64,000 nt of DNA from contig CAJQUW010008753.1 in NCBI GenBank assembly GCA_907163375.1, forward strand, positions 1 to 64,000, written 5' to 3'. The notes under the pieces were generated by a model, which had not been told where the DNA came from, did not search any database, and saw nothing but the letters and a program-made list of their open reading frames with translations. The DNA comes from Prostheceraeus crozeri (Eukaryota > Platyhelminthes > Polycladida > Euryleptidae). Made by a program: the position numbers and the translations under genes. Numbering within the stretch: position 1 is the first letter of the stretch; each line of letters begins with the position of its first letter. Below, one piece after another: positions 3,938 to 64,000 of this stretch.

Positions 3938-4533
3938 GTTTTAAATCAACACTTTATCATCAAGATGTTTCGCCAAAGTATGATAGTTCGAGTCGATCAT
4001 CGAGATTATTGGTCGGAAAGGACAGCCTGCTTTATGAATCTTTGGGAGACCATACATACACGGGATTGAAGCGCCCGGTGGAACAAAGTCTTGAGCCTCT
4101 TTAGGTAATTCTCCAGCCTTCATGAGTCGTTTCACGAGTTGAAGCAATTGTTTATGACCTTTACAGTCACTCCAGTCGATATCCCCGTGACTGACTGGAA
4201 TTTGCTTTTATCACATAAGATTCTATTCATCTTCTCGGCAAATTGTACCTGAGTACATACCACTGAGGCATTGCCTTTATCTGTTTTGAAGATCAACAGT
4301 TTGCGTTGTTTCATGTCTCGAATAGCTTTCTTTTGCTTGATGGAAAATTCATCCATTGGAATAGTAGCTCGTCCAAGTTGAATTTGAGCTGAGAAGCCAA
4401 TATAAGAAGATAATCTGCGGACATTGCTTTTAGCCGTCACTGAGCACGTTCCTTTTGTCGTTAATAGAAAGCCATATATACAGAAAAATGGGCTGGCTAT
4501 GGGAAGCCCTTTAAGTGGATCTTTTGCGAACAT
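3590..4533 (-). pseudogene. Penelope-like reverse transcriptase, N-terminal fragment
   Basis: Reading down from 4533 the minus strand encodes the lysine-rich N-terminal part of a Penelope-like RT (block LIFKTDKGNASVV). In a second frame (3941-4147) come MYGLPKIHKAGCPFRPIIS and a following LAKHLDD, the typical fingers motifs of this family (usual form LYGLPKIHK..G.PLRPI.S). After a 150-bp T-rich interruption the motif A region appears at about 3610-3715 as TSLDISSLFTNIPLRET. Frame changes, the poly-T insert and loss of the palm from motif B onward make it non-functional. The start is arbitrary because the true N-terminus is not visible. Confidence 0.75.
3787..3936. repeat. Poly-T / T-rich low-complexity tract
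   Basis: About 150 bp of almost pure T, broken by single C, G or A bases. It lies inside the minus-strand Penelope-like RT, between its fingers motif and motif A. It could be an inserted poly(A)-derived tract on the minus strand or an assembly artefact. Confidence 0.9.
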
Positions 4534-4586
4534 CTTCGTTGGATATCACGAACAAATGATCATTTTTTGAATGTGATTACATCCAT

Positions 4587-5451
4587 TCATATCTTCGATA
4601 TGTAGATGACAGTCATGTGATTCTTCCGAAAGTGAAATTGCACCACTTCCTCTCAAAGTTGAACAGTATGCATCCCAACATTCAATTCACTGAGGACACG
4701 GGATATCACTTCCTTGACGTGAAGATTCTTACATCCACTGATGGTGCTATCACGACGTCGATTTACCGCCAACCTACCTTTTCCGGTCTGTATACGAACT
4801 ATAATGCTTTTTGTCCTAAATCGTACAAAAATCAACTTGTACAATCTCTTTTTCACCGTGCTCGTCGCTTGTGTTCACCGCAGCATCTTGACGCAGAAGA
4901 AGAGAAACTCCGTGAAGTATTAGCCAGCAATGGCTGTCCTGCATGGTTTATCCGAAAGTATTCAGCCGAATGTACCCGTCCAACACTCGCCTCAGCAGAC
5001 AAGGAGGTGATTTTCTTCCGCTTACCATACTATGGGAAGGCCAGAGAAGACGAATCCCACAAAATCAAGAAAGCGATTGAACGTGCATACCTCCATGTCA
5101 AACCGATCCGATTCTTTACTACATGTCGTCTAGCCAGCAATGGAGTCAAAGACCAGGTGCCTCCTCTCAACCGAACCAACGTTGTCTACATTTTGACTGT
5201 GTCTGCGGAGCAGATTGCGTTGGGAGGACGGCTCGACCTTTGACACGACGCATCGACGAGCATGTCCCGAAATGGTTGAGAGAAAATCGAAGCAGCAGGT
5301 CCGCTCCATCATCGGCAATCACCCGTCACTTCCTTGCCTGTCCTCGAAGAGAGTATAAGTTCACAACTCTCAATGCTGCCGTGGGAAGTTTGAACTCTCG
5401 ACTGCTGAGGCCGTCGCCATACACTTTCGCCATCCGTCCTTGTGTGTACAG
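4587..5451 (+). pseudogene. Penelope-like RT C-terminal half with GIY-YIG endonuclease
   Basis: The plus-strand frame opens with YLRYVDDSHV, the catalytic YVDD box (4599-4610). The thumb-region signature follows: FLDVKI, SIYRQPTFSGLYTNYNAF and KIKKAIERAY. A frame change near 5190 then leads into a GIY-YIG-type nuclease block, VCGADCVGRTARPLTRRIDE with HVPKW after it, where the usual form is CGASYIGRTER.L..R..EH. The product would copy RNA and cut target DNA for retrotransposition. There is no N-terminal half in this orientation, so the copy is 5'-truncated, and the frameshift separates RT and nuclease. The stop is near 5549 in the nuclease frame, but similarity ends around 5451. Confidence 0.8.
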
Positions 5452-5528
5452 AAGAAATTTGTTTTTAATTTATCTCTTCTCTAATTTGACTTTAATTTTT
5501 ATTGTCTTACTCAGGCCACCGACATACC

Positions 5529-5728
5529 GCGTGCTATGTCATGTTTTATGATCACGTGTCACGTGTCCATTCCGTCCGCTCTTCAGCGACACATGATATG
5601 TACTCGTGCATTTGTGCTGTAAATGTAATTTTCATTCTGCCGTGATTCTCCATGAGATGCAGCGAGGCCCAGAATATATCGATGCCAGACATATTGCAAT
5701 CACAGTTTTCTCAAAATGACTGTATGTA
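5529..5728 (+). repeat. Right inverted flank of Penelope-like element
   Basis: Directly downstream of the nuclease coding region; inverted copy of 3270-3512. It would be the 3' non-coding end of the plus-strand copy. Confidence 0.8.
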
Positions 5729-23400: not shown

Positions 23401-26400
23401 CTTAGCCTATTATAATTTCTTCTTGTGCGACCATCTCCATATGCATTTGAAAACGCGGAAACTCATTGCGATACTTTGTATTACCCGAACTTTGACCAGT
23501 CACGCTGTCTCTTTGAAGAGCAAGTAAGTTCGTCGAGTAAGAGCATCATCGTAAGTTACACACGGAACGCAATTCACTGGATGGTCAAATGCTGTAAAAG
23601 CAAAATAACAACTATGCAACGGTACTGATAAAAAAAAATAAGTAGTTAAATAAAAATTAAGAAAAGCGCGACAGAACAAAAATGGACAAGATATTAGCAG
23701 AAGCTCAAAAACTAAGGTCATGCAATCGTCCAGCAAGTAGACATACATGAACGAGACTAGGGAATAGGCCTACAAGAGTACGTGAAGTCCTTCTGTATGC
23801 ACAAAGAAGGCTTGGTAAGGCGTATGAAGACAGCCTCACCAATCCCCAGATCAGATTTGTTTCTGAATTGTCTCACCACTTTGAAGGCACTTCTCAACGC
23901 TGGGTGAGGACAAGAAAGGTAGTGTTGAGTAATGGAAGAAGTAGGCGGCTGCTTGGACCTTAGCCTCTGCTTCTTTTGCTCGCACCACTTCGGGATGTGT
24001 TCTTTGGCTCTCAGCTCCAGCGTCCTTTCCGTCCGCCCCACATAACTCGCTCCGCAAGCATAGTCATATGAGTAAATCACAAGTGTTTCTGGGTCGGCGG
24101 AATGGAGTCTTTGGGTGCGTTGCCAGCGACTTTCCGTGTTCTATACCACGCCATGGCCTTGAGGTGAGGGTATGCGCCTTCGATAGCCTTCTTGATGCGT
24201 TGTGCTTCACTTGTTGCTACTTCACCGACATATTGAACTCCAAACATGATGAGCTTCTTCTCCACGGTTGGCACTTTGTTGACTGGTTTTTCAACACTGA
24301 ACTTGTCTATAAACCAGTGTGGATATCCATTGTTGGACAAGATGTACCGCAGATAAATGGCTTCATCTGAGAAGAGTTCCTTTGAGTACAGTTTGCGCCC
24401 CCGATCGAAAAGGCACCTCACCAGATTGATTTTGTTCTGCTTGGGACAGAATGCATTGTAGTTCGTGTAGAGCCCCGTGAATTATTAGCCTATTATGTAG
24501 TAGGCATATAGAAACCCTTGTATAAAGTCTGCATATTTCCTCTTCCCAAGAGTATATGTCAACCTCGTTAGATCCTAACTGTAATTCAATGTATTCTGCT
24601 TTTAATCATTTCTTCAAGATAGATGTAATTTAATCGATCCAAATGCTTTCGTGTTTAACTGCCACAGTAGTTATTATGGGATACAGAGGGTTTGATATGC
24701 CGTATGGCATTTATCGACTAGTGGGGTGCTAGTCCTATGTAGCTCAGTAAATGAGTACTAAAATGAGCACAGATTAAGTAGTGTGCTTTCGAAATCAAAG
24801 AGTAATAGGTTTTGGGACTCTTTCCTTAGTCATAGTTAATACGCTGGTTCAGTACTGTTTCTAGTATGCCCCACTTATTTGGGACTTAATGAATAACAGT
24901 GTATACTTGAAATCAGGTTTTAAACTATTTTGCGTGTGAAAATTGATTTCGAATGTTCAGATTCTTAGATTTTGTTCGTTTTATTGCTAGATAGACTCTT
25001 ATGTCAAATACTGAATATTATGGAAGTATAGGATCAAAATCACGAGCAACTCCTTGAGAAATAAGCGCCACCTTATGCCAACTTGCGGATTAGTGTGTCG
25101 GTCATAGTTCCTGAGCACGTGGGAATCACTATAGACATTTTCAACGGCATTAGCCACCTTGCTTTCTGAAGCAGGACATTTTGATGTAAATTATATAGAT
25201 TTATGCTTATTTATGGATTACTAAACTGCTTTCTCTTTCATGTCCTTCAACTATGATGCGAGCATTCACCAGTATAACATTCAGTTAATAATTGAGGTTC
25301 AAATATGAGGTATAGTTACATTCTTACAGCATAATAATTCAATAAGATCTGCATGACTGTTCATGATTCTCTAATTATATTTGATTCCTCACTGCTAAAT
25401 TGCATTTGACTAATCAATCATTGTTACATTTTCTATCAACCGAAGTGATATTTGAAATGACACGTTGCATTTAATGCAGTGGTTCTCATACTTTTCAAAA
25501 TTTGTTAGTTGACGGTCTCAAAATTATTTCTCAATGATTCGTGGTTCCGGCTAGCATTTAGGACAGTGAAACAAAGATATTCTTTGGTGAACAATTATTT
25601 ATTTCAAATCGATAAATTCAATCTCATTTCAAATCTCAACATTTATCAATTTTACGGTCAGTTCAATGAGATGGGTGCACCTGCTTCGTCTTCAACAGTT
25701 CTTCCACGTTGGGCTGTGGTATGGATAGTGCAACTCTCATGTCATGCGTCACATCCATGTTTTGAGATTTTGTTTTCATCGCAAGTAGAGTTGAAAGCGC
25801 TCTCTCACACTCATATGTGGTTGAACATGGAATCAGCACTTTAAGAGCCATCTTTCTGACATTGGGACAAGATTGAGCCATTTCAATTCAAAAGTCACTG
25901 CGAGCCATCTTTTTGACATTGGGACAAGATTGAGCCATTTCAATTCAAAAGTCACTGCGAGCCATCTTTTTGACATTGGGATAAGATTGAGCCATTTCAA
26001 TTCAAAAGTCAATGCGAGCCATCTTTCTGACATTGGGATAAGATTGAGCCATTTCAATTCAAAAGTCAATGTGAGCCATCTTTCTGACATTGGGATAAGA
26101 TTGAGCCATTTCAATTCAAAAGTCAATGCGAGCCATCTTTCTGACATTGGGATAAGATTGAGCCATTTCAGTTCAAAAGTCAATGCGAGCCATCTTTCTG
26201 ACATTGGGATAAGATTGAGACATTTCAATTCAAAAGTCACTGCGAGCCATCTTTCTGACATTGGGATAAGATTGAGCCATTTCAGTTCAAAAGTCAATGC
26301 GAGCCATCTTTCTGACATTGGGATAAGATTGAGCCATTTCAATTCAAAAGTCACTGCGAGCCATCTTTCTGACATTGGGATAAGATTGAGCCATTTCAAT

Positions 26401-29400
26401 TCAAAAGTCACTGCGAGCCATCTTTTTGACATTGGGATAAGATTGAGCTGCGAGCCATCTTTTTGACATTGGGATAAGATTGAGCCATTTCAATTCAACA
26501 GCCACTGCGACACATTTCACGAAAAACAAGCTTTGAACCCTCATCATGCACCAAGTCGATAAACTGATCTTTAATGAAATTTTCCTCTGAAGGCAGGTCA
26601 CTAAGGGTGAGTCCAAACGGGTTGTTGATAGCATTTTTCAAATTCATGTAGATCGGGAAAGTACCAACAAATTTCTTCGCTTAGAATTGAAACGTGGTGT
26701 TTCATCACCTCAAGAATATCGTAATCGATGTAGAATTCGCTCTCCTTGATGAATTTGTTCAGATGTGGAAATAGTGCAAAGTTTGTCTTTTGCCAACCAC
26801 TGGACGCTGACAAACGCACATTTCTTTTCATTCATTTAGGGAAGAGTCATAGCTGTCCCTTTCATCGGACCCTAGTTTGAGAACCACTGATTTAATGTCT
26901 TATATGTGAGCGTGTTTCATTGCTTTTGTCTATGTTACATCTGATTTCAACAAGTGCTATATTTGATCGGAAAAACCTAATAATAAGAAGTATGTATACT
27001 AGTATAATTGCAAATTAGTTGCCAAGTCTTGATTTGCATCGTCAACTTTGAACCATTGATCTACTTATTGCTATTGTATCTTATTGTATCTAAAATGTCT
27101 CAGCATTATAGATGTGAAGGATATTCAATTCTGCTTGGTGTAGATTACAGAGATAAATTGCCGTGTGAGATGACTTTCCTCACTGCTGATAGTCACGGCA
27201 AGAAGATCAATTTTCCATTGAACGTAATTCAAATTCAAGTCTGAATTCAGACGAACCAGAAGAATATTGACAACACATTGAACTGTTCCGGTCAGTAAAT
27301 TCACATCGTGAACAGTCGAACAGAATGAATCACAAAATCAGAAAGGTCGTCTCTTTTTCTGTTTGACTAGAATGGAAGCATTGGAACATATAGCGTTAAT
27401 GAAATGGCACAAACTGCTGACATAATACCATAGCAATCGAACAATTAACAGCCAGTTCAACATCAAACACGCCAAATTGTGCGAAGTTTCAGTGACTGTT
27501 ATCAACCGGATCACACAGCAATGAGACGCAGTCGATGTCAAGTTCTACAGAGAAGTTTGTGAACTCTTTTTCGTGTATGGAGATGTAATCCGCTGTTTGC
27601 TGGCGGTTGTTAACACTGATCAATAACGCTGAGACAAGAAAATGATTTCATTTAATTAAACAATTGAGTAATTGAATACCATTATGGAAGACTTTACAGT
27701 TACTTAGCACAAGACGAAGAAACTAATTAAATACCTTTCGCAAATACAACTTTCCGTTATATTCAGCAGAGTGATTAATTTTTGGCTGATGCACTTTTAT
27801 CATTAATGCCTCTACATGAATATAACCGAATGTCGTATTTGCGAAAGGTATTTAATTATTTTCTTCGTCTTGTGCTAAGTAACTGTAAAGTCTCCCATAA
27901 TGGTATTCAATTACGCAATTGTTTAATTAAATCAGACTTTTTCGTGTATTTGCTAACCTTTTTGATGATGATCGGAAACAATCTAATTCTGCGATGTGAA
28001 TAATACTTCCATTTGACGAATTTATCACGGAGAAAAATTGAGTTATAGATTATGCACTTTTCACTTGACAGGCCTGACTGCAATCTGATCATTGAGGTTC
28101 GTGTGTTCGATGATGAGAGCCACTTCTGCAATGCGCACGCTTGGCCAATCACACAAGCCAAAGAGAGACGGATATCTATGCTGCCATTGCATGCAATTGC
28201 TGGGATAGAATTAGCCTACGTCCACTCTAGACTAACCACACGCAAATAAATCTTTCTCTGTGGTGTAGATGACATCTATGTAATGCTCAGTTCTTTCTGA
28301 CGCTCGCACTATGAGACAGCGTGGTGGCCACTGCATGTCAATATAACTGCGTCACAGGAATTTCTTCATTCTCAAATATTTTGCAAAACGCACAGAATTA
28401 GATTGTTTAATCGTATCACTTTGCTAGAAGTGCAAACTGATTCAAACATATGGCACATACAGGAACTTAATAAGTGGGCAAAAAAGAAATTTTTAATACC
28501 TTACAGAGATAGGAAAAATAGTCGTGCGTCGCTTGCGGATTTCTCTGAATTCCTTCAAAATGCTCCGATCGCCATTTCCTTCAGATTCGAAGAATTCAGA
28601 TCATTGAGCAAAAGTTTTCTCGATAATGCTGGTCCCTCCGATCTTTATTAAAAAAGTTAGCAGGCGCACGAAAAAACGTTCACAAACTTCTCTGCAGAAC
28701 TTGACATCGTCTGTGTTTCTTCGCTGTGTGATCCGGTTGATAACAGTCACTGAAGCTTCGCACAATTTGGCGTGTTTGATGTTGAACTGGCTGCTCATTG
28801 TTCGATTGCTATGGTATTATGTCAGCAGATTGTGCCATTTCATTTATGTTACATGTTCCAATGTTTCCTTTCTAGTCAAACGGAAGAAGAGACGACCTGT
28901 CTAATTCTGTGGCAAAACGAATATACAAAATGCTCTCAAAAATGTATTACACATATTGATTTTAACTCAAGTTCTCATCCAGGAATTGCCTTCCCACTAA
29001 TTATCATTGCAATTCACTAGATTGTTAATTATTTTTCGATTGTATTGAAATTGGTTTTTGGGATTGCTTCCTTTTATTTCGACGCTATTGAAATTCTAGA
29101 TGTTTTTTTGCGTTGAAGATCTTTGAGAATAGCAAGCAATTGCAATCCCAATATTCCAGTTGTATTCATTAATGATTGACTTGAACCATTTGTGAGAGAA
29201 ATCACATTTTCTCAAGATAAGAGGGGAGATGATAATCAAACATCAAAAGTAAGTTGTGTGCTTGCATGATGTGAGTTCTCACACACAGAAATTAATAAAT
29301 GCAATAGATAAAATCTAACATCTCTATTGAGAAAATAATGTGAAGACATGAACTTTCAGTGCAACAAGATTGAAAAATTGATTTTAATGTGATAATTAAT

Positions 29401-52985: not shown

Positions 52986-54362
52986 TATACTCATCAACAT
53001 AATTAATGAAACAAACTATCATTGGCTTGAATTGAAGTTTGTTTCATTTTTTTCTCAGGTAAGATGCAATATCTCGCTTTCTATGTGTTACCATTCAACA
53101 CATTAGAAAATGGAGAAAGATCTATGGCGGTCAAATTTCAAATTTTGATATCGATACAACTGTTACAATTGCTTTTACAAATTGAACATAAACGTGAACT
53201 GAAATCCAGCTTTTGTAAAATAAAATGGCACACGATCAGTTTACCAGAGGTATGGCTATTGGAATGATTCGTTGTGGTAGAAGTTGTGCGAGTGTTGCCG
53301 AAGAGCTGCAACTAGCGAGAGTCGTTGTTTGGAGGTGGTGGTGTCGATGGAAAGTAGAAGATGTTAAAAAGAAGAAGGGATCTGGTTGACCAAGAAAGTC
53401 TGCAGGAAGGACAGACGCACGTCTAGTTTTAGCTGCAAAGAGGAATAAATTTGTATCAGTCCCAATAGTCGTGCACTGGAAGAGTGCCTCAAATATAAAC
53501 TGTAGCGTTCGAGCGGCTTACCGAAGATTGCGAGAAGCTGGAATTCAATCGCGACGACCAGCTGTCCTAATTCCATTGAGTTTTGAGCACCGTAGAAGAC
53601 GAGTTTCCTGGTGTGATGCCCATCGCTCATGGAATAACCATCACTGGCAGAAAGTCTTGTGGACTGATGAATCGAGATTCACTCTGGATTTCAATGACGG
53701 TCGTGTTAGAGTGCATCGTCTTCCAGGTGAGCGCTTTGCCCCATGCTGTATTAAAGAACACGACAGATATGGTGGTGGAAGTGTTATGCTGTGGGGTGGC
53801 ATTTGGCATGGCAGACGAACGACAGCAGTCATAATCAAAGGCACGTTTGAAATTGTGCTTCCTGTTGTTGCCCCAGTGGTCAGGGTGGAGGATCTCGTCT
53901 TCCAAGACGACAACGCAAGACCACATCGCTCCTCGGCTGTCATTGCCACTGTTAGGAGATTGAATCAAACCCTTGACTGGCCTGCACGCTCACCTGACTT
54001 GTCACCCATTGAACAAGTCTGGGACGAGCTTAGATGGCGAGTGAGAGACCGCTATTCAGTTCTACCAGTGTCCCTGAAGATTCTCTCTGAAAGACTGATA
54101 GAGGAGTGGCTTCTCCTTGAAACATCCTTCATTCAGAAACTTTGTGAATCCATGCCATCTCGGATTACTGAATGTATTGTAGCTAGAGGGGGCACACGCG
54201 CTATTAAAGTTGAATCTGCTACATGCGTTGTTTTTCTGTGCTAGCGACTTGGTGGAGATTGTGACTAAACTGTCAAGGTATCATACATACATGCATATAT
54301 ACTATTGAAGACTGAAAGAAGTTAAAGAAGTAAATGTTTCAAAAATTTTGTCAATGAGTATA
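52986..54362 (+). mobile_element. Tc1-type transposon (about 1.38 kb)
   Basis: Short imperfect terminal repeats TATATACTCATCAACATAAT (left) and the inverse of TATATACTCATTGACAAAAT (right), both followed by ATGAAACA/TTGAAACA, in a TA context. Contains one transposase frame broken by a single TGA. Confidence 0.85.
53225..54244 (+). pseudogene. Tc1-type DDE transposase, one in-frame TGA
   Basis: Frame of 339 residues, the usual Tc1 length. The N-terminal HTH reads MAHDQFTRGMAIGMIRCGRS with CASVAEELQL and VVWRWWCRW; a TGA at 53387-53389 then interrupts, and the same frame continues PRKSAGRTDARLVL, the second HTH, and AAYRRLREAGIQSRRP. Catalytic residues are all in place: D in VLWTDESRF, D in VFQDDNARPH, E in SPDLSPIEQVWDEL, spaced as in the DD34E class (33 or 34 residues depending on which D of DD is counted). 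One C-to-T change at a CGA codon explains the stop, so this is a recently inactivated copy. It would cut and paste DNA at TA sites. Confidence 0.9.
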
Positions 54363-55968: not shown

Positions 55969-57900
55969 TCAATCTGTAAAAATGTTATTAAAGATAATAC
56001 ACAATTTCGGAAAAAATGAGTTTCTTCTTCGGTTAGTTTTGCAATAAGGGACTACAAAGCGGTTTGATCGGCCTGAAAGAGGTGGGCATAGTCCATGGAG
56101 CATGTTATCGGGATCTTTCGAAATTGAAATTAACATTTTGGATGCTGCCCTTTCACGTCTGTCGTCCAAGTTCGTGAATCTGCCACATCCACACTCGCTA
56201 GTGCCACATATCAGGCGGTGTGCTCGACGCTGAAGTTTGTCCAGAGCGGCCTTATTTTGTTCGGACAACCCAACTGTCAAGGGAGCACAGTATTCCATAA
56301 TTGATCTGATCAAACTGTTGTAGACGTTGATCGTCTGATCACTATGCAGAATCGGTTTCAGAAGGCGTATAGCATAGAATCGTTGTGAGGCTATTCTATT
56401 GATGTGTTCCATATGTCTATTCCACTTCAGGTCTGAAGACAAGTAGACACCAAGAAGCTTTGCATCGTTTACACTGGCGACATTTTGGATCAATGGTGCA
56501 GGGAAATTTTGTGTTTCAGGCATCCACTGGAGTTTACATTTCGACAAGTTCAGTCGTAGACCATTTGACGATGACCAGCTCAACATGGTTTGGTGCTCTT
56601 TCTGGAGGATGTCAACGCTTTGGCTGGTTATGGGCACAATGAAGGTACAATCGTCAATGTATTTGACGACCGTAGTTCCACTGTGCTTCGGTACTAGCGA
56701 GCTAATAACCAGATTGAACAAATAGGGCCCAAATATCGATCCTTGTGGTATTCCGGATTTGATTGGGCGCTCAAGACTTCTAGCATCAAGTAGCTTCACC
56801 GATTGAGCACGTTTGCTCAGATAGTCTGAGATCCATTGCACAAATTCGGTTGGGAACTTTTTCTTGTCAAGTGAGTCCATGATCGTTCTATGACTCAATT
56901 GGTCAAATGCCTTGCTTAAGTCATAGGTAACCACTGCCACACCCTTTGTTTCACTTTCGTCAAGGGCAGATGTCACTCTGTCATGCAAATAAATAAGTGC
57001 AGTGTTCGTCGATGACTTTGGCATATTTCCAAATTGCAATTTGCCAGCTTCTTCTCTGAGTCTTTGTCCGATGCCTGACTGTAAGATGGCCTTTTCACAA
57101 ATTTTTGATAGTGCGGGGAGTAGTGAGATGGGGCGTAAATCATCTTTCGATACGGGATATGATTTGGGAACCGGTGTAATAACTGCCTGTTTCCACGTGC
57201 GAGGAAAACTTCTGCTGATTATGGACATATTTATTACATGTGTCAAAAGAGCTGCTACGATGTCCGCAGCAATCTTATAGATGACAGTAGGGATGTTTTC
57301 TATTCCTGGCGCTTTCTTCGCCTTCATTGATGAAATCAACCGATGAACTGTCTCGACTTCTATCACAGGAGACCATCCATCCATCATAGCAGAGCTGTCT
57401 TGGGATAATACAGGCGCTTCGTGGTCAACTTGGTAGGACAAGAAGGTTGAGTTGATTCCCTCTACAGCTGCGCCCAAAGATGGAAAGCACTTTGCGAGCC
57501 TATCCATGGCAGACAATCGAGTTGATTTCGTACCCTTTAAAACATGTACAACATTCCAGAGTTCTTTTGCTCCATTTTTTGCTTTATTTGCCCATTCCAG
57601 CTTTGATTTGTATATCATTCTTTTGACTTTCTCATTAAGGTGTCTGTACGTTTCGAAATTTCGCGCTCGATAGGATAACCATCGTTGATTAATGAGGGAC
57701 TTTATGAGCGGAGTGATGAATGGCTTGTCACGTGGAGTCATGACTACATTTAAGCTTGGGATCGCTCTAGAAAATGACGATTGTATGGTCTCCATCAGCA
57801 AGATACATTTCTCATCCAAAGACAATGCCATATCATAAATTGCCGAAATGTTAGAGTTGCTTGAATCTCTCAAAAGGCTTGATGGTGAGACTCAAGAAGA
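55969..57900 (-). CDS. LINE ORF2: reverse transcriptase (CR1/L2/Jockey-type)
   Basis: Open for 634 codons from the first ATG at 57873; similarity starts a little upstream. RT blocks in order: KKAPGIENIPTVIYK, WKQAVITPVPK, LRPISLLPALSKICEKAI, VVTYDLSKAFDQLSH (motif A), GIPQGSIFGPYLFNLVI (motif B), VVKYIDDCTFI (motif C, YIDD in place of the usual Y/FADD), NLSKCKLQW, AKLLGVYLSSDLKWNRHMEH, and the C-terminal LQRRAHRLICG. The frame ends IFNNIFTD. It copies LINE RNA at a nicked target. The long intact frame suggests a young copy, but the endonuclease is truncated and in another frame, so it cannot move by itself. Confidence 0.9.
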
Positions 57901-58140
57901 TTGTAAACGGTGCATACTTTCGTGTTTGGCACGGCATGTTCTGACAGAGGGAGAAGCAGTACCGATAAATGGTCTGAGGTGGCAACTGGAGGCCCGATTT
58001 CGACTTTATAATCATCGACCATTTCTGTGGAAACAAGGATTAGGTCTAGAATCGCGGTGCCCCTTGTAGGTTCAACAACAATGTTTTGAAGATTAAACGA
58101 TGCAGATAAGTAGTAACCCCGTGCCAAAGTAAAGCGCAAA
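57870..58140 (-). pseudogene. LINE endonuclease C-terminal remnant
   Basis: In a different frame from the RT: VVEPTRGTAILDLILVS and SDHLSVLLLP, the last blocks of an EEP-type endonuclease (PTRG...LDLV...SDH.SV), then LLESHHQAF and a stop. A frameshift at the junction around 57880 separates it from the RT. Upstream of about 58140 the similarity ends and other sequence begins. Confidence 0.8.
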
Positions 58141-58263
58141 ATGGGCAACGTTGAGTTATCATGCTGACTCAGCCCCCCTCTGGAAGGAAGTATGAAGGGA
58201 GGTGGCCAACGATGTGCTGGGAGGAATGGGTCCGTGAGGAGAAAACTGTTCCTTACCCCCCCC

Positions 58264-59520
58264 CCTCTGGAAGGAGGGAAGGAAGGCGGCAAGGGTAGGA
58301 ATGTGGGAAGGATAGAGTGAGAAAAGCTGGGTTTTGGTGATTTTGGGATGAGTAAGGTCGTTTTTCGGGCAGAAGGCGGGTTCGGATGGGAAATTGGAGT
58401 TCAGATTCGGAGTCTACGTGGAATGCTGGGTTGGGAAGGATGGAAAGAGGAGTTTTCCTGTGAGGTAAGGGTAGGAATCCCTGAAAACGGCAGAGTTAGA
58501 AAACGGTGGGTTTTGGTCATTTTGGGATGAGAAAGGCTGGAATTCGGCATGAAGGAGGCCTCGGATGGGAAATTGGACGGCAGATTCGGAATCTACGTGA
58601 AATGTTGGGTTAGCAAGGTTGTTTCCAGCGGAATCGGAGAGAAAACATTTTTGGGACGTCCCCACCCCTCTGGACGAGACTTCCAACTTTGGTTCTAGAG
58701 ATCGGAGAAAGTCGTGTGATAGCTCATTTGAAAGCTAAGAGTGAGAAAAATGCAGTGGAAAGCTCACTTTGGCCCCATCTTCTTGGGTTTAGAGAGGAAA
58801 ATGGCAGGAAAACGTCAGAGTTAGAAAAGGTGGGTTTTGGACGTTTTGGGATGGGATAGGCCGTTTTTCGGCATAAAGGAGGCCTCGGATAGGAAAACGA
58901 AGAGCAAACTCGGACTTTTTGGCCAATTTTGGGTCTAGGGACTTGTTTCCAGCTCAATCGGAGAGAAACAGTTCTAACCCCCCCCCATCTGGAACGAGAC
59001 TTCCAACTTTGGTTCTAGAGATCGTAGAAAGTCGTGTGATAGCTCATTTGAAAGCTGAGAGTGAGAAAAATGCAGTGGAAAGCTCAATTTGGCCCCATCT
59101 TCCTGGGTTTAGAGAGGAAATTCTCTGAAAATTGCCAGAGTTAGAAAAGGTGGGTTTTGGTCGTTCTGGGACGAGAAGAGTCGTTCTTCGGCATAAAGGA
59201 GGCCTCGGATGGGAAAACGAAGAGCAAACTCGGACTTTTTGGCCAATTTTGGGTCTAGGGACTTGTTTCCAGCTCAATCGGAGAGAAAAAGTTCTGACCA
59301 CCCCCCATCTGGAACGAGACTTCCAACTTTGGTTCTAGAGATCGTAGAAAGCTCTCAATCTGCAATAGCTCATTTGAAAGCTAAGAGTGACACAAATTCA
59401 GTGGAAGAAACGGCTGGTTCACATCTGCTTTTGTTTAGATGTGAGACGCCATTGAAAATTTTGGAAATTGTCGAAAAAGTGAAAGAGTTGGAATTTTTAC
59501 GAAAATCGCACTAGCGGGTG
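58264..59520. repeat. 320-bp tandem array, about 3.5-4 copies
   Basis: Block TTCCAACTTTGGTTCTAGAG falls at 58681, 59001 and 59321, period exactly 320. Other shared blocks: GTGGGTTTTGG, AAGGAGGCCTCGGATGGGAA, GACTTGTTTCCAGCTCAATC. A more diverged copy precedes 58681 and a partial one follows 59321. Open frames here are repeat by-products. The array separates the LINE from the ORF cluster. Confidence 0.9.
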
Positions 59521-59607
59521 AACGAACCTTGGATGGGCAAATAAAGACCAGATTTGAAATCAGCCTGACATTTTACACCTGAATGTCATTCATGCTATGT
59601 CTGCGAA

Positions 59608-59999
59608 GTGATAGGAAGAAAGATGACAGATGCAGTAGAGTTTACGAATGAATTTTGTTCACTACGTTTTCATCGACAAAGTCTTAGTGGTGTGATTGGG
59701 GACTACATCATCTCATTTCATCATGAAAAGGTAGACTTAGAATTTGCTATCGCTAAAGGTTACTTCGTTTTCCAACAACTCATGGTCAGTTTGATGAATA
59801 AGATGTGAAAGGACGATTAGTTGCAGAGATTGAATTTGAGAAAGTGACTGATGAACATGCAGGTGAACGTGTAGTGTTTCATTTTGCATCCTATTCTGCA
59901 GAGACGATACATGATCCCAAAGATTTCTATCAGCGACACATGGTTAAAATTGCATCTCGACTAGATTCATTTCAAGAACATGGATACAACTTTCTCTGA
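59608..59999 (+). pseudogene. A1: unrecognised protein, paralogue of A2, broken
   Basis: A first frame (59608-59808) and a second (to 59999) together parallel A2. The match is clear around VKGRLVAEIEF against VKGRLVAYIEL, and later DFYQRHMVKIASRL against QFYVRHMEKIMERI. The two frames are separated by a frameshift near 59780 and a TAA at 59799-59801 just before the conserved VKGRLV block; the end is also shorter than A2. No domain recognised. The aligned region is rich in charged residues with predicted alternating strands and a C-terminal helix. Confidence 0.55.
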
Positions 60000-60143
60000 T
60001 GTCGCATAAAACACATTCATATTCAACTCAATGTGCTAAACTAGATTTGACTACAAGATTTGGGAGAAGCAATCATGAGTCAGTCGTCCGCGTGCCTCCT
60101 TTTCCCTGCCGCAACGAAGTCAGGGGAGAAACGGAGGTCTCTG

Positions 60144-60148
60144 ATTGG
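60144..60148 (+). promoter_or_regulatory. CCAAT-type box (ATTGG)
   Basis: CTGATTGGCT, an inverted CCAAT box, 35 bases upstream of the TATA box at 60183; the pair resembles strong animal or viral promoters. Confidence 0.5.
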
Positions 60149-60182
60149 CTCTCATATTGTGAAATGTGGATTCGCAGGAGAC

Positions 60183-60190
60183 TATAAAAG
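60183..60190 (+). promoter_or_regulatory. TATA box for B1
   Basis: TATAAAAG in GGAGACTATAAAAGCAGACG. A transcript starting near 60213 would contain a leader with donor CAA|GTGAGT at 60309 and an acceptor TTCGTTACAG ending at 60630, followed by ATG at 60637. Confidence 0.6.
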
Positions 60191-60316
60191 CAGACGTCTC
60201 CCCATTTTCTCTTCATTTCATTCTCTTGACTTGGAAAGCGTGTGCGACTTGCTCAAGCAATTCTCCGTCTCAATTTTGTCTGATTCAATCCTGTTTCCAA
60301 ATTTACAAGTGAGTGT

Positions 60317-60513
60317 CATGACGGTGTGGCCTAAACGCAGCAGAGTGTGTGCTGCAAGCCGATTTTGTTGAATCATCACCACCGCCACCTCCACCACCTA
60401 GACGCTTCACCTTTAAGTCTTTTAAGGAATTGAAACTTAATTCGGGGCCTAAGCCCATGACATTTAATTTACTGGACAATGACGAAGACTTGGACTTTGG
60501 TGATAATCTTTAA
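60317..60513 (+). CDS. Small proline-run acidic ORF, no ATG near its start
   Basis: 65 codons open between a TGA and the TAA at 60511-60513. Contains a run of seven prolines (SSPPPPPPPRRF), a basic stretch (TFKSFKELKL) and an acidic end LLDNDEDLDFGDNL. The first ATG in frame is late (MTFNLL), so it would need splicing from an upstream exon. The low-entropy design looks like a real disordered protein or tail, but function is unknown. Confidence 0.35.
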
Positions 60514-60516
60514 ATC

Positions 60517-61320
60517 ATGTTAACGCCCCAAAAGGTCCTCTTAAGGGCCACCTCATATGTCACTGCTAAGCTAACAATTTTCTTTTCTCTGATGATCATG
60601 AATGTACTTAGTGGTATTCTTTCGTTACAGACTGCCATGGCCATGAATCCTACTCCAACTGCTGCATTGCTGAATCCTCAACATCTCGAGCTGTGGAATC
60701 CGAAAATTGAAAAAGTATTTCACGGCTATCCTACCTACAAACAACAAGTGCGCTACAGCGGTGTTCGACTCTATTTTCAAACGCCGGCGGTATACTTACC
60801 AAAAGTGGATACGCAAGTAAATCGTTGCGGTGAAAACCTGAGTATCCCTATTAATAAGTGGTTGCGCCAGCAGCTTGAAATTTTAGAAGACGTTGTGAGG
60901 CAAAAGGCTCTTATTCCTACTGAACTATTACAGTTGTGGCCAGAAAAGAAAACTTCTTATTATAAACCATTGTATCGCGGCACTCGCTGCTATATTTTGC
61001 AAAGCAAGTATTGTAAAGTCACTTCAGGAGTGACAGTTGAACAGTCAGTTGAAACAGAATTGTCATCGCTAGGTGCAGGCTTTCATTCCTTTCATATAGA
61101 GGTGCCTGCTGTTTATGTAGGACCTCATCAATCTGACGGTAATTTGATTTCTCTCAATTTGCGTGTTGCTCAAATTCATCATCAACCTGAGTTAACAGGT
61201 CTTGATCACATTGAGAAAGTCATTGATTCTTGTGTCAAAGAATGTCAAGAACCTGTCACCAAATCTAAACGCCGTCGCGCATCAAAGAAAGTTGGTGCTA
61301 CCACCAAAAAGAAATCTTAA
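60517..61320 (+). CDS. B1: unrecognised basic-tailed protein, intact
   Basis: Open for 267 codons from 60517. A better start is probably ATG 60637 (MAMNPTPTAALLNPQ), because an excellent 3' splice site ends at 60630 and a donor lies downstream of the TATA box; this gives 227 residues. Conserved with B2 around GAGFHSFHIEVPAVYVGP (B2: RKGFYSFEIKIQTIYMGP). The C-terminus TKSKRRRASKKVGATTKKKS is strongly basic, like a nuclear-localisation or nucleic-acid-binding tail. A predicted mix of beta strands and one helix (INKWLRQQLEILEDVV) precedes it. I know no family match. Confidence 0.65.
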   Translation: MLTPQKVLLRATSYVTAKLTIFFSLMIMNVLSGILSLQTAMAMNPTPTAALLNPQHLELWNPKIEKVFHGYPTYKQQVRYSGVRLYFQTPAVYLPKVDTQVNRCGENLSIPINKWLRQQLEILEDVVRQKALIPTELLQLWPEKKTSYYKPLYRGTRCYILQSKYCKVTSGVTVEQSVETELSSLGAGFHSFHIEVPAVYVGPHQSDGNLISLNLRVAQIHHQPELTGLDHIEKVIDSCVKECQEPVTKSKRRRASKKVGATTKKKS

Positions 61321-61474
61321 GTATTGTAATCAGTTAGTATGTAGTGAATGTGGAAAACACGGTCTTGCGCGTTATGTTCAATTAAAACATTGTAATCATG
61401 TTGTATGTTTCTTTTGTTTTGTAAAGGACAGACATCCTTATGAAGTTCCTGCTCAATGTATTATTTTGCAATGA
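61202..61474 (+). CDS. C: small RING-like zinc-binding ORF
   Basis: The 3' part encodes CSECGKHGLARYVQLKHCNH followed by VVCFFC, i.e. C-x2-C-x13-C-x-H-x2-C-x2-C, the first six ligands of a RING finger, and one later Cys (PAQC); the eighth ligand is missing. The frame overlaps the end of B1 (to 61320) in another reading frame; the only ATG is at 61202 inside B1. An acceptor-like ATTGTAATCAG at 61332 would allow a spliced start instead. RING proteins act as ubiquitin ligases and are common in large DNA viruses. Confidence 0.5.
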   Translation: MITLRKSLILVSKNVKNLSPNLNAVAHQRKLVLPPKRNLKYCNQLVCSECGKHGLARYVQLKHCNHVVCFFCFVKDRHPYEVPAQCIILQ

Positions 61475-61526
61475 AGTCTTTTTGATATTGTAGGTTGTCA
61501 TCATCATAGACAGTGAGGGCGCACCC

Positions 61527-62057
61527 ATGCAGGAGTTGAGAGCTATTCCAATGAGGGAAAGTGATCAAACTGTTGTTAGTGTATATCATAGATTTGCCTA
61601 CTGTCTTCCACAAAAAGGCGAATGGTCACGGCGTCATGTGCATGGACTTGATCCTTCTATTTTAATTCATATTGGATTTGTAAATGAAACGTATTTGATA
61701 AGTGATTTCAAGCGGTGGCTGTCAGGTTTTCATATTGTTAGAATATTAGGAAATGATTTTGAACGAGAAGCAGCAACACTTCAGTTGCACATTGATAATT
61801 TATATTTACCATGTTGGGTAGATCGTGTAAGACAAGACTTTCATATACATTGTGATCAAAAGAAGTTTAGAGATGAAATGATTTTTGATATGGCTGTATG
61901 TTTCGGTGAGAGACATCACCTTTACAGACCACCATCCCATTGTAATACTAGAAATAAAGCCACCTACATTGCAAAACTCTCTTCACGCTGCCACTGTAGT
62001 CTCTATGACGTTTATGAACTGTATCTATATTATTGTCAACAGCATGGGTCTATGTAA
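61527..62057 (+). CDS. D: unrecognised 176-residue protein, intact
   Basis: ATG at 61527 is the first in frame, preceded by a short spacer after ORF C; stop at 62055-62057, AATAAA at 62139-62144. Sequence starts MQELRAIPMRESDQTVVSVY. It has an aromatic-rich middle (DFKRWLSGFHIVRILG) and a Cys/His-rich second half (CWVDRVRQDFHIHCDQKK, later CNTR, RCHC, YYCQQHG) that could bind metal. No known family recognised. Codon use looks coding throughout and no break is seen. Confidence 0.65.
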   Translation: MQELRAIPMRESDQTVVSVYHRFAYCLPQKGEWSRRHVHGLDPSILIHIGFVNETYLISDFKRWLSGFHIVRILGNDFEREAATLQLHIDNLYLPCWVDRVRQDFHIHCDQKKFRDEMIFDMAVCFGERHHLYRPPSHCNTRNKATYIAKLSSRCHCSLYDVYELYLYYCQQHGSM

Positions 62058-62138
62058 AACATGTTTTTTACTCCTTATGAATGAGTGATGATCATTTCAT
62101 GAAGTGTATTCTGTACTTGTGAATTTTGACTGATGCTG

Positions 62139-62144
62139 AATAAA
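62139..62144 (+). terminator. AATAAA after D
   Basis: 82 bases after the D stop codon. Confidence 0.5.
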
Positions 62145-62204
62145 CTTACACAGGAACATGATTGTTATTTCTGTTTTATTCATAGTGTAAGTCATTGAAG
62201 CAAT

Positions 62205-62651
62205 ATGGAATCTATACTCACAACGTTTATGATGGCGCATCGTACCTTAGCCAACCACATGTGTCATTTGACACTTGATTAACAAGGATTCGATGGAATT
62301 TTACAAGATTGCAAACTTACATTTAAAATGAAGATGAATGATATGAAAGTAGTGGTAACTGAAAGCCTTCCTCTCTTCAAAAGATTGATAGAGAGTTTAC
62401 AACCTCAAGTTGTGAAGGGTAGACTCGTTGCATATATAGAGTTGAAAGATTTGCAAAAACCACTTCGTTTTGGATCTTATTGCACAGAATGGATTACTCT
62501 TAGTGATCAATTTTATGTACGTCATATGGAGAAAATTATGGAGAGAATAGAAGAGACGATGGAAGGAAATGCATACGTTGTTCAACATATCATGATTCAA
62601 CTGAGTGTGTTTACATCAACGACTTTGTTTGATGGCCGACATGTTGTGTAG
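62205..62651 (+). pseudogene. A2: unrecognised protein, paralogue of A1, one in-frame TAA
   Basis: Frame of 149 codons starting at ATG 62205 with a TAA at 62280-62282; after it the frame is open from ATG 62328 (107 codons) to the stop at 62651. Aligns with A1 before and after the TAA, so translation once probably ran through this point. If 62328 is used as start the protein is simply shorter. Contains VKGRLVAYIELKD, QFYVRHMEKIMERIEETMEG and a C-terminal beta stretch. AATAAA at 62656-62661 follows the stop directly. Confidence 0.55.
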
Positions 62652-62655
62652 ATGC

Positions 62656-62661
62656 AATAAA
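62656..62661 (+). terminator. AATAAA after A2
   Basis: Five bases past the A2 stop, very tight spacing as in compact viral genomes. Confidence 0.55.
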
Positions 62662-62705
62662 GACTTCTTTTAACTGAGTATTTTGTAATGGCGTATAGAG
62701 TAACA

Positions 62706-62840
62706 TGAGTCATTGCACTTTGTTAGATAAATGAATGCGTCTTTGTTCGAGAGGGGCGTGACACAAAATGAGTCATTGCGCTTTGTGCATTACTATCAGG
62801 CTCTTTGTTAGATAAATAAATGGGTCTTTTCTTCGCTAGA
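62706..62840 (+). repeat. Direct repeat GAGTCATTGC..CTTTGTTAGATAAAT
   Basis: Two copies about 60-90 bases apart share GAGTCATTGC, CTTTGTTAGATAAAT and GTCTT plus a trailing GGGGCGTG/GGGGTGTG. They lie between A2 and B2; possibly regulatory. Confidence 0.55.
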
Positions 62841-63009
62841 AGGGGTGTGTCACTAACGTCTTTGTGAGGACTAGAACGACTTTGTAAGAGGGTTGTCAGT
62901 CATAGGGAAGGTTTCCACCCACGCAGTCAAAAGTTCACGTGTGATAGATAACTCTTTGTCACGCAACAAAGACAGGGAAAACATGAAAAGGGAAACGCAT
63001 TGGGTACAC

Positions 63010-63513
63010 TGAACTCCCTTACTTTAGCATCGAGTACAAATGCTTTCAATCAAAAGATAACTCATCATGGAGAAGCCGTGACCATAAAAACACCAGGTTA
63101 TCGGACGGCTTGTCTAAAGGTCATGTCAACAAAGTATGGACTGGCCATGTGTGTACCGTTAGACTATTAGACACCATTGCAATTCAATACTCTTGAAACA
63201 TTCCTGAAAGAAAATCTCACCATTCCCAAAGAAGTTGTTCGACACAATGAGAAGCGGCCACAAGTTTCCATCATGGAAAGACGATACATGTATGTTCATA
63301 TGGATAGACACTGAAAAGGAGAGGAGCGAATTCGACTTACTCAATTGCAAACCTCTCCCCACTTTGCGAAAAGGATTCTACTCCTTCGAAATTAAAATTC
63401 AAACCATCTACATGGGTCCGAGTAGGGACGGAAGGTCGTTTACGTTGAATCCCTATCTTGTCTCCATAACCTTTAAAGATGATGTCTATGTTGATGATGA
63501 TCAACTACAGTAA
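63010..63513 (+). pseudogene. B2: paralogue of B1, broken
   Basis: A frame open from about 63010 through LKVMSTKYGLAMCVPLDY meets a TAG at 63167-63169 and continues FLKENLTIPKEVVRHNEK to a stop near 63313. A frameshift around 63300 leads into the frame 63235-63513 with WIDTEKERSEF, KGFYSFEIKIQTIYMGP and a C-terminus ending DDDQLQ. Matches B1 in order and spacing but lacks B1's basic tail. Confidence 0.5.
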
Positions 63514-63669
63514 CACTCTCCACACACTGAGAACGCACCATCGGTCTTTATGAGACCAAGGCCTAACGGACACCTTATCAAGAAAGAAAATGTACACTCA
63601 CCATGCCACACATGAACATGACTCTCTCCTCCTTTCTTAGGCATACCATTCTTCACTCAGGTTCGAATC

Positions 63670-64000
63670 ATGTGGAAATTATCAGCATGTCTCTATGTAT
63701 CATGGAAAAATCAGTATGTTACATTTCATGATATGAAACGTCAACTTCATATAACTCTAGAATGCTTTCAACTACAAAGGTTGCATCGCGCAATCCTATC
63801 CAACTCTTGCCGTGTCATTAATGTAGGAGACGGCATTGTATTTATTCGCATTCAAGAGATGATTCTACATAATGATCACTGCTACATCGTGATTCCAAAA
63901 CCCTCATGGGAAAAGTATAAAAGGGAAAGTATAAAAAGAATCAACCCTCATGTATTCTGTGAATCATGCTCCCCATCCGCATCATCAACGCCATGCGCGA
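63670..64000 (+). CDS. E: open frame running off the window end
   Basis: From ATG at 63670 the frame stays open for 110 codons to the window edge: MWKLSACLYVSWKNQYVTFH, then CRVINVGDGIVFIRIQE and YIVIPKPSWEKYKR. Composition looks coding. Two TATA boxes lie inside it, so its last part may instead be the promoter of a gene to the right. Not recognised. Confidence 0.4.
   Translation, partial: MWKLSACLYVSWKNQYVTFHDMKRQLHITLECFQLQRLHRAILSNSCRVINVGDGIVFIRIQEMILHNDHCYIVIPKPSWEKYKRESIKRINPHVFCESCSPSASSTPCA
63916..63937 (+). promoter_or_regulatory. Twin TATA boxes near the right edge
   Basis: TATAAAAG at 63916-63923 and TATAAAAA at 63930-63937, like the box at 60183, followed by CAACCCTCATG. Probably the promoter of the next cluster gene outside the window. 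Confidence 0.5.

Follow-up and report, generated by a model that had tools for sequence, protein, structure and literature searches.

Polintons, which encode a polymerase and an integrase, are among the nearest published designs (PMC6431247) to a mobile DNA element that we describe here from the flatworm Prostheceraeus crozeri. The element enters the right end of a window of 64,000 nucleotides, the whole stretch analyzed (contig CAJQUW010008753.1, positions 1 to 64,000 of the forward strand). A second comparison is offered by the heliorhodopsin-containing mobile elements of the green alga Cymbomonas, which are likewise repeated, virus-like and sporadic carriers of TATA-binding protein (TBP) and exonuclease genes, but which have a Mirusvirus-type capsid gene and for which the published description identifies no DNA polymerase (PMC10675990). 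A third is Maelstrom, a protein of the Piwi-interacting RNA (piRNA) pathway whose MAEL domain has an EHHCHC signature (PMC2628886). Animal Maelstrom has been reported as inactive and without the catalytic nuclease residues of its ancestors (PMC4408791), and the source of the arenavirus exonuclease has been proposed, from a comparison of structures, to be a cellular enzyme resembling Maelstrom (PMC7968707).

An earlier note, made from the sequence alone, had singled out a cluster of genes in the window, A1-B1-C-D-A2-B2-E, as its best candidate for a virus-like or mobile system. We find that this cluster is the left third of a larger, many-copy mobile element and not a free unit. The choice of candidate is upheld by terminal inverted repeats (TIRs), 6-bp target duplications, at least 150 copies of each of two genes and a Polinton-like family B DNA polymerase (PolB). 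Our literature searches, to which Repbase and subscription papers were outside scope, found no published description of such an element and no paper joining polinton, TATA-binding protein and DNA polymerase B.

Ends and copy number of the element

On the contig, the window copy runs from 58109 to 75747 (17.6 kb), of which 11.7 kb lie beyond the window's right edge; its start is thus not the 59608 at which the earlier note had begun the unit. The left TIR (58109-59611) opens with AGTAGTAACCCC, shows about 79% identity to the TIR of copy C3198 and includes 2.9 copies of a tandem repeat of about 320 bp (58483-59406); across the element, tandem units of about 320-344 bp lie inside the inverted repeats. 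The element's end sequence is AGTAGTAA. The 6-bp target-site duplication, CAGATA, occupies 58103-58108, with its partner directly after position 75747.

We compared copies at seven other places in the same genome (C5615, C3633, C1213, C1621, C4349, C382 and C3198) and obtained four further pairs of ends by searching with the element's terminal 60 bases. Both ends are readable in C3198 (155755-173789, 18.0 kb), C3633 and C4349, the other retrieved copies being cut by the retrieved stretch or rearranged. A perfect 6-bp duplication flanks six of the seven two-ended copies, the exception being C4255, and seven of eight with the window copy; at C514 the element ends are 61.5 kb apart. The terminal bases of the two TIRs are identical at 124/124 positions in C3198 (12 gap positions), 129/130 in C3633 (0) and 127/129 in C4349 (2). 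In the window copy they agree at 122/140 aligned positions (10 gaps), and so it is older than these three copies.

A search of the flatworm's own genome (2.05 Gb, 14,165 contigs) with D gave 10,420 first-look candidates, of which the best 150 were scored: all 150 are at 91-94% identity (the window itself at 100%) and 145 have no stop. Similarly, of 11,260 candidates for the TBP gene the best 150 were scored and 148 have no stop. The genome therefore holds at least 150 close copies of each gene. Among these best 150 of each, TBP is found 2.5-4.3 kb downstream of D on the same strand at 60 of the 64 listed TBP places that share a contig with a listed D. The single-strand order A1-B1-C-D-A2-B2-E, as read in the earlier note, is present in the window and recurs in C3198, C3633, C382 and C4349.

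On each of six contigs (C1213, C1621, C7358, C10564, C12494 and C13366) a pair of oppositely oriented D genes is separated by 1.6-14 kb. Mirror-image copies of the element were confirmed by sequence in C1213 and C1621, a pattern as if from hairpin or head-to-head replication intermediates.

Polymerase, TATA-binding protein and the nuclease D

In copies with open frames, A1, H, B1, C, D, A2, B2, E and TBP are encoded on one strand and PolB (1361 aa) on the strand opposite to TBP and D; the element also encodes A3 and G. PolB is homologous to that of a Polinton-like virus close to the C1213 copy (28% identity over 993 columns, E 4e-87), includes an endonuclease VII-like part (1.8e-6) and has, read by eye, Exo I-III and Pol A-C motifs. 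The TBP has, over its full length, the two repeats that mark a TATA-binding protein: it matches the Pfam TBP model in two stretches (3.9e-21), NCBIfam TBP models across residues 4-173 and TBPs in the PDB.

Comparing the proteins of less decayed copies with phmmer (database size set to 10 sequences), we find that A1 matches A2 (1.4e-18), A3 (2.8e-29) and residues 191-325 of the element's PolB (2.8e-12), and that B1 matches B2 (2.9e-18); A2 alone gives no match to PolB (0.33). The A1/A2 and B1/B2 likenesses pointed out in the earlier note are therefore homology. Its duplicated A-B pair holds in this sense, but the pair belongs to something wider: A1, A2 and A3 form one family with the N-terminal domain of PolB, and B1 and B2 are a second duplicated family. 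Since domain A has no match to the N-terminal piece of the neighboring virus's PolB (E 0.05 or worse), the link between A and PolB rests on the element's own polymerase. An AF2 model of B1 built from 10 sequences was unusable (pLDDT 36.6).

D is not without homologues, a prospect that the earlier note had raised: the protein collection yields 145 matches to it at E <= 1 (120 of them listed) and one to B1, a near-identical protein; B1, D and the D profile were the queries. Relatives of D lie, among other places, on contigs of 10-21 kb (P0003, P0004, P0016, P0036, P0082, P0084 and P0091). One D relative, P0084, is recorded in NCBI under a metagenome-assembled genome of Pseudomonadota on a 17-kb contig and is likely to be mis-binned DNA of a eukaryotic element.

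The structure model of D (pLDDT 96) fits best to the exonucleases of arenavirus nucleoproteins (NP), which fill the first 24 of the best 50 rows of a VIA-align fold search, their best rows scoring 14.5 versus 12.3 for DnaQ. In the family alignment E14 is invariant in 68/68 members, and H32, H50, C136, H141 and C168 are each invariant in 82/82. The EHHCHC residues of the Maelstrom domain are thereby kept, in order, beside catalytic DEDDh residues. The D family has the D-x-E of Exo I, the acid of Exo II, the H-x4-D of Exo III and the RNase H-like fold of a DEDDh exonuclease; the Exo II acid is probably E92 (82/82 members). A glycine follows D-x-E to give a D-x-E-G motif, which D includes only because its frame opens ahead of the first ATG; a later methionine is likewise where many of the aligned relatives begin. 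The residues E14, C136, H141 and C168 are candidate zinc ligands. Unlike the C-terminal exonuclease of arenavirus NP, D is free-standing, is encoded by a DNA element, has no nucleoprotein domain and is 14-17% identical. Unlike Maelstrom, with which it shares the invariant E-H-H-C-H-C order and the nuclease fold, it keeps the catalytic DEDDh residues, is short, has no HMG box and is carried by a mobile element. Taken together, these data support the proposal that D works like a MAEL/arenavirus-type RNA exonuclease. The earlier note was right in suggesting a mobile system, but it foresaw neither this exonuclease nor the TBP gene.

Integration, silencing and competing explanations

We conclude that the element is a genuine Polinton variant carrying an unexpected nuclease. 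With Polintons/Mavericks and adintoviruses it shares a homologous PolB that includes an endonuclease VII-like part, TIRs, a similar length and 6-bp target duplications, which are of the Polinton type. It differs from them in carrying a TBP, a DEDDh exonuclease with the E-C-H-C residues, three free-standing copies of the PolB N-domain and tandem repeats inside the TIRs, and in having no recognized RVE integrase, capsid proteins, packaging ATPase or protease. The earlier note had proposed extending the assembly to the right in search of such genes: this yielded the polymerase and the terminal repeats, but scans of element proteins against Pfam, NCBIfam and PHROGs, which diverged capsid genes could escape, found no capsid, packaging ATPase or protease. 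An RVE-type integrase likewise has no Pfam match among the proteins scanned, the remaining small open reading frames (ORFs) of C3198 being read by eye only.

Our likeliest explanation, which we hold to be somewhat more probable than not, is that the element, about 18 kb long, is a Polinton-related self-replicating transposon, or a virus-like element lacking a capsid, that uses an integrase in trans and deploys D against RNA silencing. PolB would copy the element from its ends by protein priming, the element's own TBP would aid transcription, and splicing would join a leader exon to B1 or D. For integration the element would depend on an RVE-type integrase acting in trans, whose probable source is a Polinton-like virus in this genome that does bear a capsid. 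We suggest a Polinton-type integrase because of the 6-bp duplications and because such a virus adjoins two of the eight element copies inspected (not all flanks of the eight being covered). D, for its part, would be an RNA 3'-5' exonuclease that removes double-stranded RNA or small-RNA precursors, thus blunting RNA interference (RNAi) or piRNA silencing, which would help explain the element's copy number.

Several observations weigh against this explanation. No integrase or transposase is recognized in the element, and the joining step is therefore unexplained within it. No PolB model is among the Pfam matches of the element's polymerase or that of the neighboring virus. With respect to D, the lower-scoring arenavirus rows are level with DnaQ (Z within 1), Foldseek places RNase T first in the PDB, and MAEL structures are not among the best 50 VIA-align rows. 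The EHHCHC residues were matched by order and not by alignment to MAEL sequences, and the C-to-H spacing differs (Cx4H in D versus Cx2H in Bombyx). None of the 82 family members matches a Maelstrom or arenavirus model in Pfam, and the D profile matches no PDB sequence. We do not claim membership of Maelstrom, because there is no sequence-model match, no MAEL structure is among the best rows, and RNase T and DnaQ also fit. The window's own D matches no exonuclease model in Pfam; its link to exonucleases runs via its relatives and its fold. Finally, dN/dS between the window copy and others is 0.31 for D (19 copies; means 0.031/0.098), 0.32 and 0.36 for B1, 0.34 for A2 and 0.29 for TBP, and it is 0.09 over 167 pairs among other D copies, but A3 reaches 0.72; all of these figures are rough, because copies decay neutrally once inserted and because ranking the D copies by their similarity to the window protein biases both the intact counts and dN/dS.

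How the element integrates allows two other accounts. It may be the satellite of a Polinton-like virus that bears a capsid and resides in the same genome, replicating itself and taking the integrase and perhaps the capsid from the virus. We regard this as a serious though not the likelier possibility: the Polinton-type duplications and the want of a recognized integrase or capsid fit it, as does a neighbor on C3633 and C1213, where a Polinton-like virus lies on the right-hand side of the element at a distance of 1.4-3 kb (pieces L028:5975-9431, L030:7532-10000, L050 and L051). This virus has a PolB of its own and an ATPase-like gene (Pfam ATPase_2 0.0014, which falls short of the cut-off), and by eye it also has genes that look like capsid genes. 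However, the element shares no terminal sequence with the virus pieces compared, within which neither the virus ends nor an integrase was seen, and the proximity may reflect chance or preferred insertion. Alternatively, the element could be fully autonomous, with E, B, G or H an integrase too diverged for recognition. Precise 6-bp duplications require some integrase, and none of these four has a convincing family match, yet G, roughly 400 aa long and of coiled-coil type, gives only weak matches of that type (NCBIfam archaeal SMC-related, 5e-4), and we find this account doubtful.

An unlikely alternative for D, in our judgment, is a replication or end-processing nuclease (end trimming, primer removal or proofreading) instead of an anti-silencing factor. 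PolB already has its own Exo motifs, although D could still serve replication; in addition, the best arenavirus rows score above DnaQ, and both the E-C-H-C tetrad and the glycine that follows D-x-E suit an RNA exonuclease. We attach next to no probability to an ordinary host gene cluster or a chance set of open frames: apart from its location in host DNA nothing favors this, and it is rejected on the high copy number, the target duplications, the inverted repeats and the protein families conserved outside this genome. A phage or bacterial origin was also rejected, as B1 has no match in phage records, nor in viral contigs by a pattern-based scan, and pattern-based scans of viral and GTDB contigs found no D relatives.

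Maelstrom helps to silence germline transposons, and a transposon-borne relative with a full catalytic set would be an active enzyme on the opposing side, a testable arms-race hypothesis. D also bears on the origin of the arenavirus exonuclease, and a PolB transposon with its own TBP and no recognized integrase makes the source of its integration directly testable. Only tentatively, and as an improbable extension, would we raise the element to a distinct mobile lineage with a Polinton-type polymerase, its own TBP, a borrowed integrase and a catalytically intact Maelstrom-type RNA exonuclease against piRNA/RNAi, and the D family to a candidate source of the arenavirus NP exonuclease.

The window copy and its surroundings

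The window copy is decayed: A1, A2, B2 and the polymerase are broken, and B1, D and TBP are open. All of its genes and expression signals in the window are on the plus strand. A1 (59623-59996), homologous to the PolB N-terminal domain, is broken by a frame change near 59805 and is open in other copies. A TATA box, TATAAAAG (60183-60190), lies upstream of H, B1, C and D and is matched in C3198, C382, C3633 and C1213. A splice-donor-like site, ACAAGTGAGT (60305-60314), ends a putative leader exon and is matched in C3198, C382 and C3633 but not in C1213; acceptor-like sequences directly before B1 (TTTCGTTACAG, 60620-60630) and D (TTTTGATATTGTAG, 61480-61493) occur in the window and all four of these copies. 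These sites suggest a leader exon that may be spliced to B1 or D.

H (60322-60510) is open, contains a run of prolines and has an acidic tail (DEDLDF); its start differs in frame from C3198 (by eye). B1 (60637-61320) is an intact ORF with a basic C-terminal tail, and C (61196-61474), small and cysteine/histidine-rich, overlaps its end in another frame. The RING-like character given to C by the earlier note stands by eye, but Pfam has no match at E <= 1. D (61494-62057), the DEDDh exonuclease of arenavirus-NP/Maelstrom type, is intact. A2 is open at 62283-62651, its N-terminal part being cut off by an in-frame stop, and B2 (62952-63513) is in pieces (62952-63167, 63171-63311 and 63208-63513); both are open in other copies. 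E (63670-64000) runs past the window edge and, by eye, its 3' part is in another frame than in other copies. A second TATAAAAG TATA box (63916-63923) precedes the TBP gene, whose start, at contig position 64002, is already outside the window. The earlier note had held that TATA boxes and tight poly(A) signals set the cluster apart. For the former this is so, with TATAAAAG found, on both strands together, twice in the 5.9 kb of the element and four times in the remaining 58.1 kb, but no enrichment is seen for AATAAA (0.85 per kb on the plus strand versus 0.87 per kb per strand elsewhere in the window).

Just to the left of the element, a reverse transcriptase ORF on the minus strand (55969-57831; Pfam RVT_1 7.3e-28) is probably part of a non-LTR retroelement. 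By eye, open frames at 4132-5551 and 24077-24481 resemble Penelope-like reverse transcriptase/GIY-YIG elements, and one at 53390-54244 resembles a Tc1/mariner transposase. A repetitive frame at 25825-26489, open on both strands over about 640 bases, is probably a minisatellite.

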